Shown here piece by piece: positions 1 through 34,080 of a stretch of 43,563 bases of DNA (position 1 is its first letter; every line of letters starts with the position of its first letter). The notes under the pieces are model-generated. The model ran no database searches. It worked only from the letters and a program-made list of their open reading frames with translations, and was not told where the DNA came from. Source of the stretch: Thermoguttaceae bacterium. GTDB lineage: Bacteria > Planctomycetota > Planctomycetia > Pirellulales > Thermoguttaceae. Location: positions 1-43,563 of the forward strand of contig JAFSMW010000062.1 of NCBI GenBank assembly GCA_017447745.1, in the 5' to 3' direction. The position numbers and the translations under genes were made by a program.

Positions 1-28
1 TCAAATTGTCAATAGAGTTATTGGTCAT
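1..28 (-). CDS. 5' end of a leftward gene, product unknown (partial)
   Basis: An ATG on the minus strand at 28-26 opens a frame reading MTNNSIDNL to the left edge. An AAGGA-type ribosome site lies about 12 bases upstream. A minus-strand promoter fits further up: TTGCGA at 99-94, a 17-base spacer, and TATACT at 76-71. Only nine codons are visible, so no function can be given. The start could be chance, but promoter, ribosome site and ATG are spaced as expected. Confidence 0.4.
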
Positions 29-83
29 GGCAAGGGGTTCCTTTCTTGAGTAAAGTAAAAATTCTTGCCAAGTATACTCAATT

Positions 84-118
84 TTACCTATTTTCGCAAC
101 CCAAATTTGAACGCACCC
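84..118 (-). repeat. Orphan, inverted end of the MITE-like element
   Basis: Read on the minus strand, this stretch begins GGGTGCG and continues with the same TTGGGTTGCGAAAATAGG end as the full element that starts at 127. It lies head to head with that copy, separated by GTCAATCT. Similarity stops near position 84, so it is a solo end or a truncated second copy. With the neighbouring end it forms a 22-bp perfect inverted repeat (84-105 with 140-161). Confidence 0.7.
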
Positions 119-126
119 GTCAATCT

Positions 127-457
127 GGGTGCGATAAATTTTGGGTTGCGAAAATAGGTAAGATAAGAGACTAAAACGTAGCCCACGCCTTTAGGCGTGG
201 GATTCAAAACGGCATAATATAACGCACGAAGTCCCCTCCCTTCCCCGCGCCAATAGGCGCGGGGACGGGAGGGGAACGGAAACGTTTGGGGAGTGGCGTC
301 TTTGTTTAGTTCCTCAGATAAATCTGGGGGCTACGATTTTTGAATTGTTTTTATTTCCCACGTCTAAAGACGTGGGGATAAGAACAGAGTAATCAGAAGG
401 TTTCGAAAAGGTTTCAAGACATATTCCCTTTCCATGTCCCCCATTTTGAACGCACCC
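127..457 (+). mobile_element. MITE-like element, copy 1 (331 bp, no coding capacity)
   Basis: The element starts GGGTGCG and ends CGCACCC, and is closely similar along its length to 26873-27210. It holds internal hairpins: CCCACGCC/GGCGTGGG around TTTA near 182-201, a long stem at 232-275 with loop AATA, and CCCACGTC/GACGTGGG near 358-377. The flanks carry TCAATCT on both sides (120-126 and 459-465, one extra T on the right), a probable target-site duplication. No open frame of note lies inside, so it would be moved by a transposase encoded elsewhere. Confidence 0.75.
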
Positions 458-19745: not shown

Positions 19746-19850
19746 CTTGTACTTCATTCGCATGTGGCTACTAAAGATTCGACGGATTAGCCATATTTTA
19801 ACGGGTGCACGCAAATTTTTCTTGCCGTTGCACATAGTTGAGTCCGGTTT

Positions 19851-19918
19851 GTGGGCGTGTCGCCCGCATAGAACCACGTAGTGGTTCAATTTTAATAGCC
19901 GTGGGTTTTAACCCGCGG
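19851..19918. repeat. Palindromic repeat, family E (copy 1)
   Basis: The unit holds GGCGTGTCGCCCGC, then GAACCAC-GTA-GTGGTTC, then AGCC and GTGGGTTTTAACCCGCGG. The same order is seen at 23350-23416, and a degenerate reversed copy lies inside the oleC-like gene at about 21678-21730. Confidence 0.7.
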
Positions 19919-19953
19919 ACCTAAAAGATTAACAAAAAAGAAGTCGACAAATC

Positions 19954-20002
19954 CCCTTTTTTCCCCTCCCGGCGCCGTAGGCGCCGGGAGGGGAAAAAAG
20001 GG
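19954..20002. repeat. Perfect 23-bp stem hairpin
   Basis: The arm 19954-19976 is fully complementary to 19980-20002, leaving loop GTA. The inner core GGCGCC-GTA-GGCGCC resembles the cores of the long hairpins at 243-264, 26997-27016 and 33918-33960, but the outer stem sequence is different. I see no gene in 19746-20318. Confidence 0.8.
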
Positions 20003-20168
20003 ACGGACTCGATTAGGGGGATGTGTAGAGCGCTTTGCCGACCGTAGACTAAAGTCGACGGTTATAGAAATGGCGTTTCTTCGAGACGCGATTCAGCTTC
20101 TCATTTTGTCTGTCTTCGTCGGAAAATTTTGCATGCACCCAATTTTAATCATATCTCTTGCCTTACCA

Positions 20169-26760: not shown

Positions 26761-26872
26761 ATAATGTACAGAGCAAAGGACGCAAAAAATCAAATTTTCG
26801 TCAAACGTTTCTGTAAAGACGGGGGTGTTTTACGATAATATATCGAATTATGGGCTGTTTTTGTTCGATTTT

Positions 26873-27210
26873 GGGTGCGATAAATCTTGGGTTGCGAAAA
26901 TAGGTAAAATGAACATCTAAAACGTAGCCCACGCCTTTAGGCGTGGGATCCAAAAGGATATAAATAGTATTATAACGCGCGAATTCCACACTCACTCACG
27001 CGCCATTAGGCGCGTGGGTAAGTGTGGAGGGCAAGCGTTTGGGGGAGGATCGCTTTTTTAGTTCCCCAGATAAATCTGGGGGCTACGATTTTTGAATTGT
27101 TTTTATTTCCCACGTCTAAAGAGTGGGGATAGGAACATATAAATCTGGATGCTATAAAAAGGTTTCAAGACTCTTTCCTTTTTTTATGCCCCCCAAATTT
27201 GAACGCACCC
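26873..27210 (+). mobile_element. MITE-like element, copy 2 (338 bp) with 7-bp target duplication
   Basis: Starts GGGTGCG, ends CGCACCC, and is flanked directly on both sides by CGATTTT (26866-26872 and 27211-27217). Shares with copy 1 the end GGGTTGCGAAAATAGG, the CCCACGCC/GGCGTGGG hairpin, AATCTGGGGGCTACG and TTTTTGAATTGTTT. The central stem (26986-27027) is CCACACT..CACGCGCC-ATTA-GGCGCGTG..AGTGTGG. It differs from copy 1 in both arms but stays paired. No gene is supported in it or in 26761-26872. Confidence 0.85.
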
Positions 27211-27238
27211 CGATTTTTAAATCTTTTTCCCCTCCCCA

Positions 27239-27266
27239 TTGACAATTTCTTAAAAAAGTTTATCTT
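27239..27266 (+). promoter_or_regulatory. Promoter of the tRNA-Ile pair
   Basis: TTGACA at 27239-27244, a 16-base spacer and TATCTT at 27261-27266, about 40 bases before the first tRNA. Confidence 0.55.
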
Positions 27267-27307: not shown

Positions 27308-27382
27308 GGGCGTGTAGCTCAGTTTGGTTAGAGCGCGTCCCTGATAAGGACGAGGTCCATGGTTCGAGTCCATGCACGCCCA
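27308..27382 (+). tRNA. tRNA-Ile (GAT), copy 1
   Basis: A 75-base cloverleaf: acceptor GGGCGTG/CACGCCC, anticodon stem CGTCC/GGACG with loop CTGATAA (anticodon GAT at 27343-27345), T arm GGTTCGAGTCC, discriminator A. The 3' CCA is not encoded. Confidence 0.97.
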
Positions 27383-27449: not shown

Positions 27450-27524
27450 GGGCGTGTAGCTCAGTTTGGTTAGAGCGCGTCCCTGATAAGGACGAGGTCC
27501 ATGGTTCGAGTCCATGCACGCCCA
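27450..27524 (+). tRNA. tRNA-Ile (GAT), copy 2
   Basis: Identical base for base to the copy at 27308-27382, with the anticodon at 27485-27487; 67 bases separate the two. Both are probably on one transcript. They are outside an rRNA operon, where this tRNA often lies. A short T run follows at 27542-27548. Confidence 0.97.
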
Positions 27525-33736: not shown

Positions 33737-33835
33737 TGCGGAATGCGGAATTACGCAAGCGCAGTAACAATTATAATTCTTACTGAGTCGCACGCAAATT
33801 TTAATTGCGAATCAGACAAGACGAGAAGCTGAACC

Positions 33836-34080
33836 GCGTCCTGAAAGGACGCAACTCTTGTAACCGTGGGCTTCAGCCCACGGGAAAGTCGCGATAATCT
33901 CCCCTATCGCTTTAGCCGCATTTCCTCCCGCGCCCCCGTTGGGGGCGCGGGAGGAAATGCGTATTCGTCGATATTCAATTATCCATGTTTCCCCTCCGGC
34001 GGTTGAAACCGCCGGTTACAATGAGTTTCGTCCCTGTCGGGACTTAGCGGACTAACGTCCGCTGTCGCTTTCGCGACGTT
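33836..34080. repeat. Tandem hairpin cluster between convergent genes
   Basis: At least seven hairpins in 245 bases: GCGTCC-TGAAA-GGACGC (33836-33852), CCGTGGGC-TTCA-GCCCACGG (33864-33883), a perfect 20-bp stem with loop GTT (33918-33960), CCGGCGG-TTGAAA-CCGCCGG (33996-34015), TCCC-TGTC-GGGA, AGCGGAC-TAAC-GTCCGCT and GTCGC-TTTC-GCGAC. Together they occupy most of the gap between lptD and the hopene cyclase and may end transcription from both sides. Confidence 0.8.

Follow-up and report, generated by a model that had tools for sequence, protein, structure and literature searches.

The window analysed here comprises 43,563 nt and corresponds to contig C18 in the draft assembly of G000 (4.35 Mb), i.e., a Thermoguttaceae gut MAG of the Planctomycetota, whose closest named relatives are Thermoguttaceae MAGs. 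It contains a short element that starts with GGGTGCG, ends with CGCACCC and is directly flanked on both sides by CGATTTT (26866-27217), as the initial annotation had described. The following features define the element, its borders, its second copy and the sequence downstream.

26873-27210, forward strand: ISKra4-type MITE of 338 bp, assigned by its ends, its copies in the same genome and the flanking repeats
26866-26872, no strand: left copy of the direct repeat CGATTTT, 7 bp, supported by the empty site in the relatives G001, G002 and G003
27211-27217, no strand: right copy of the direct repeat CGATTTT, 7 bp, from the sequence
26873-26922, forward strand: left arm, the first 38 bp of which match the corresponding end of the autonomous IS at 34/38 positions
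27188-27210, forward strand: right end, which agrees at 22/23 positions with that of the autonomous IS (copies in G000)
127-457, forward strand: second copy of the MITE, 331 bp, with flanks GTCAATCT and TTCAATCT
27239-27266, forward strand: promoter-like TTGACA-16-TATCTT before a tRNA-Ile pair, alignable in three relatives

The element is short, multicopy, bounded by terminal inverted repeats (15/20 bp) and free of genes, i.e., it shows the traits of a MITE. The longest open stretch in any frame spans 52 codons, which agrees with the lack of coding capacity stated earlier. Its fold is well beyond that of shuffled sequences (z = -8.3 as DNA, -8.8 as RNA), and the inner chain of hairpins is confirmed as well. 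For the second copy, TCAATCT on both sides, with one extra T, had been reported; we see these flanks as 8 bp with one mismatch (GTCAATCT at 119-126 vs. TTCAATCT at 458-465).

Just downstream of the element lie two tandem tRNA-Ile(GAT) genes (27308-27382 and 27450-27524) with equal Rfam score. The MITE is inserted 28 bp upstream of the promoter-like sequence, which is preserved despite the insertion; an effect on the tRNA-Ile genes is possible. The Rfam search returned only the two tRNAs and no family match for the hairpin element, and we therefore abandoned a known RNA as explanation of the hairpins.

With the 338-bp element as query, at least 40 places in its own genome were matched in full or in part, plus further fragments. 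The genome-wide search with the two ends, which had been proposed as a check, yielded 43 occurrences of the left-end and 60 of the right-end pattern, counts that take in the ends of the autonomous IS, compared to 0 in the reversed controls. Through gain or loss of internal modules, the copies fall into size groups of about 270, 330-350 and 405 bp.

We also compared the flanks of 33 copies for which both sides are available, a few of them from relatives. In the 8-bp register, flank identity is 0.655 vs. 0.263 for paired flanks of different copies (n=33), and 16/33 copies match at 7 or more of the 8 positions vs. 0.19% of the control pairs. None of the other registers stands out, save for a weak excess at 9 bp, and within this set the window copy 26873-27210 is the sole one whose flanks agree fully at 7 bp. 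That is, the target duplication of the family is 8 bp, from which the window copy deviates with its 7 bp, such that the perfect 7-bp duplication initially reported holds for this copy but not for the family. The window copy's repeat has probably lost one of 8 bases. The concern that other copies might lack direct repeats or fixed ends is answered by these numbers and by the fixed ends themselves.

Empty sites, likewise suggested as a check, were found in relatives. When one repeat is removed, the joined flanks of the window copy can be aligned to the unoccupied sites of G001, G002 and G003, with no gap where the flanks meet. The cleanest case is another copy (L072), which has GTCTAGGA on both sides in G000, while a single GTCTAGGA is present in G001. 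Fixed ends over dozens of copies, direct repeats, empty sites and a full element all support the MITE reading.

This full element, whose ends agree with those of the MITE and enclose a transposase as had been asked for, is an IS of 1454 bp in G003 (L107:508-1961) with the 8-bp duplication TAAACCGG on both sides, i.e., the MITE has its ends in common with an autonomous IS of the same genome or genus. The IS carries two overlapping frames joined at a run of nine A, where a -1 shift would fuse both; the frame split suggests programmed -1 frameshifting or transcript slippage. The best NCBIfam model for its second frame (ORF2) is NF033572 (ISKra4; E 8.8e-52, 351/422 positions) with 176.6 bits at a cut-off of 205, and a genus-wide ISKra4 family scan gave the same result. 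Given a score below the curated cut-off, the transposase would at best be a divergent ISKra4 member. We take the ISKra4 family to be of DDE type, and the mobilisation by a DDE transposase proposed initially is then in accordance with the ISKra4-like partner.

Target duplications of the ISKra4 family are about 8-9 bp long. Those of the IS studied here are 8-9 bp as well (TAAACCGG, TCCAAATG, TCTAACTC and GAAGTAGAA; 9 bp in one IS copy). Since three left and three right IS ends of G000 pair up via TCCAAATG, TCTAACTC and GAAGTAGAA, several IS copies with 8-9-bp duplications are present in the window's own genome. A complete assembly of the IS exists in the sister species only; G000 shows ends alone. 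Many IS-type end sequences are located at contig ends, as is typical of longer repeats at which an assembly is interrupted, and the ISKra4 family scan of G000 found no full transposase gene because the IS collapsed at these contig ends. The transposase of the G003 IS is 100% identical to one from RGIG2232 (goat duodenum). The window itself starts with such an IS end.

1-118, reverse strand: left end and first ORF1 codons of the autonomous ISKra4-type IS; the contig breaks inside the IS

Within window positions 1-126, the IS end is separated from the MITE copy at 127 by 8 bp (GTCAATCT), which double as the left target repeat of the MITE. Either the same target was used by the IS or both moved together.

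The interior of the MITE consists of a cassette with three hairpins and a downstream unit with a fourth one.

26923-27087, forward strand: REPIN-like cassette CGTAG...CTACG; the C235 Y1 gene has homologous cassettes on either side
26926-26949, forward strand: hairpin H1, REP-like, with GTAG foot and CCCACGCC-TTTA-GGCGTGGG
26985-27026, forward strand: hairpin H2 with a stem of about 20 bp, of hypervariable sequence with compensatory changes between copies
27064-27087, forward strand: hairpin H3, inverted REP-like, with CCCCAGA-TAAA-TCTGGGG and then CTACG
27109-27128, forward strand: hairpin H4, CCCACGTC-TAAA-GAGTGGGG, downstream unit, the family stem minus one base

The arrangement CGTAG-H1 ... 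H3-CTACG forms an inverted pair of palindromes with GT(A/G)G feet as found in REP/REPIN sequences. H1 and H3 are kept in sequence as well as in pairing, while the sequence of H2 is not conserved and differs between copies also in length. Among 69 distinct cassettes from G000 and its relatives we observe 59 different 5' arms of H2. Covariation, counted by script, shows that H2 arms pair at 96% of the positions within a copy vs. 66% when combined with arms from different copies; pairing is thus kept through changes on both sides. The 58 distinct H2 arm pairs provide a natural series on how palindromes keep their pairing while the sequence changes. The H4 unit forms tandem repeats in some free copies and is missing from the elements of about 270 bp. 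The distance from the left end to H3 is 192-195 bp in most copies, a near-constant spacing that fits one capture and subsequent copying; copies with a distance of 259-263 bp contain an extra upstream module.

A chain of hairpins had been called unusual for a MITE; we agree and add a putative origin, namely palindrome cassettes associated with Y1 transposases. Positions 51-282 of the element match (Blast, fetched loci) the cassettes on both sides of a Y1 transposase gene at C235:8038-8499 (162 codons) with 71% and E-values of 2e-23 and 1e-19. Two more small Y1 genes of the genome (C90, C22) have their own palindromes on both sides as well. All three genes are single-copy in G000, unlike typical active IS200, and their proteins score above the NCBIfam IS200 cut-off, i.e., they match TnpA-IS200 (PF01797/NF033573) with both HUH and Y motifs; the surroundings of the tyrosine read QYIKNQKAHH. 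No C235 Y1 gene was detected in the three relatives, though cassettes are present there. True RAYTs were considered for the Y1 genes and dropped, since NP(L/V)(R/K)xG is absent and the class 2 signature Y---NP is lacking; the NF047646 model gave no match for C235 and a score below threshold for C90. By the motif examined the Y1 proteins are not RAYTs; we thus propose that the arrangement would work like a REPtron but do not claim REPtron membership.

Cassette material of the other two Y1 genes is also found between ISKra4-type ends. Two such elements (L069 and L125) contain cassette material of C22 (E 1e-40, 1e-32) and C90 (E 3e-19, 8e-13), and L125 is flanked by the perfect target duplication AAAGCTGT. 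The window harbours a comparable case.

19803-20140, forward strand: element with the related ends GGGTGCACGCAAATTTT and AAAATTTTGCATGCACCC that encloses C90 and C22 Y1-gene cassette material

Its ends are related but different and may represent a second shell subfamily. A possible 8-bp repeat (TATTTTAA/AATTTTAA) emerges when an additional C is tolerated on the left. A worn C22-type cassette with an end-like GTCGCACGCAAATTTT on one side is located at 33787-34018.

Within the fetched loci of G000, we detected 78 H3-CTACG sites. Both MITE ends are present in 28 of them and neither in 28; the number of free cassettes is an upper bound, because some keep worn MITE-end remnants (L172, L177, L185) while others have none. 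One end was found in 17 sites, and in 8 of these the contig stops before the opposite side is reached; 5/78 sites are truncated on one side and lack an end on the opposite one. We sought an empty-site alignment for three free cassettes, which was usable for L180 and, less cleanly, for L186. The free cassette L180 (G000:C123) is absent at the same place in G003 (L206, C55). The corresponding place in G002 (L222, C24) holds a C22-type Y1 gene and cassette beside an apparent worn ISKra4-type end, a weak assignment judged by eye. One locus thus appears in three states in three species, i.e., with a Y1 gene, its cassette and an apparently worn MITE end (L222), with a free cassette (L180) and empty (L206).

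We consider it likely that the element is an ISKra4-type MITE that carries a REPIN-like, Y1-associated cassette as cargo and was multiplied by the ISKra4 system. The transposase of the ISKra4-type IS would act in trans on the MITE ends, move the element and duplicate mostly 8 bp. End homology, duplication and empty sites are direct observations, and the biochemistry is inferred. Given what is known of their family, the Y1 enzymes (HUH, IS200-type) would recognise single strands of H1/H3, with cleavage at the GTAG/CTAC feet; TnpA-REP of E. coli acts in this way (PMC3733652, PMC6006769). The cassette would have entered the MITE shell, whereupon the ISKra4 system may have multiplied shell and cargo, and cassettes of two other Y1 genes would have entered other MITEs with similar ends; we infer this entry because of shared junctions and homology. 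That is, the hairpin chain may represent repeats of a single-strand transposase captured in the shell of a DDE transposon. A composite system is conceivable, though we propose it only tentatively: the DDE-type shell would serve as docking platform for HUH transposases, which would place, swap and diversify palindrome cassettes at the CGTAG/CTACG feet before the shell spreads them. The G002 locus, where a Y1 gene lies next to an apparently decayed shell end, suggests that such a gene, too, can move with the shell.

The same apparent decayed end next to the C22-type Y1 gene, as well as the end remnants in several end-less copies (L172, L177, L185), would also be expected if the cassette were the plain body of an ISKra4-type MITE, with end-less and Y1-side copies being decayed and the Y1 gene located there by chance. 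We regard this as quite improbable, since three different Y1 genes are each flanked by palindromes on both sides, each type with its own set, and several end-less copies have no end remnants; for one of them, the site is empty in G003 (L180/L206). Furthermore, the boundary of the cassette is a GTAG foot as in REP elements (PMC3733652).

The hairpins could also be spread by the ISKra4 system alone, with template-switch repair of cruciforms maintaining the palindromes and no role for Y1 enzymes. Replication template switching can keep hairpin arms complementary, whatever the enzyme, and H2 is kept in pairing but not in sequence. H1 and H3, on the other hand, are conserved in sequence and pairing, as expected of a recognition site, and adjoin the Y1 gene, which makes this alternative unlikely. 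Finally, the very stable fold, the strong compensatory change in H2 and the location just upstream of a tRNA promoter are compatible with a conserved structured non-coding RNA or regulatory element, i.e., with hairpins of the whole 338-bp element selected for RNA function. Such an element would have to be reconciled with insertion at many sites with target duplication, absence from this place in three relatives, the variable sequence and length of H2 and the lack of an Rfam family, and we thus consider it highly improbable.

The closest known systems include insertion sequences of the ISKra4 family and their MITEs (ISMich2-like group, ISfinder). Transposase homology, ends starting with GGG, the 8-bp duplication and trans-mobilised gene-less derivatives are shared with ISKra4 IS and their MITEs. 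The transposase studied here differs in being divergent (below the NCBIfam cut-off) and in its apparent -1 shift at nine A, and the MITE differs in that its cargo is not IS-derived. The PATEs of Haloquadratum are gene-less palindromic relatives of IS200-type transposases and derive from IS200/IS605; DDE-type terminal repeats or target duplications are not known from PATEs. Inverted pairs of GTAG-footed palindromes in many copies are common to our cassettes and the REP/REPIN/BIME sequences of TnpA-REP (RAYT) REPtrons (PMC2817692, PMC3116915, PMC3733652, PMC6006769), as is a single-copy Y1 transposase gene flanked by palindromes on both sides. In contrast to REPtrons, the Y1 protein is of IS200 type, without class 2 Y---NP and RAYT NP(L/V)(R/K)xG, and many copies lie within DDE-type ends with 8-bp duplications, for which these studies describe no REPIN counterpart. 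A MITE of Porphyromonas gingivalis is likewise reported to have another repeat class as interior, its cargo being a minisatellite rather than the presumed substrate of another transposase (PMC4596501). Word searches of the literature, which covered few subscription papers, revealed no description of a REP inside a MITE or of ISKra4 MITEs. ISKra4-type MITEs and palindromes around a Y1 gene are each known, and no described precedent for their combination was found in the papers searched. Here, repeats associated with a single-strand transposase reside within a DDE-type transposon, i.e., a double-strand one, and three cassette types share one end design. REP-like sequences, whose spread is still debated, would thereby gain a second vehicle.

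Two further observations concern the shell. The same 268-bp element with near-identical flanks is present in two species (L059 in G000:C36 and L042 in G003:C52), and this insertion looks older than the split of both. Elements L064, L066, L067 and L070 have the same ends, several of them with target repeats, and interiors (185-430 bp) without the three cassette types; the shell therefore carries other cargo, too.
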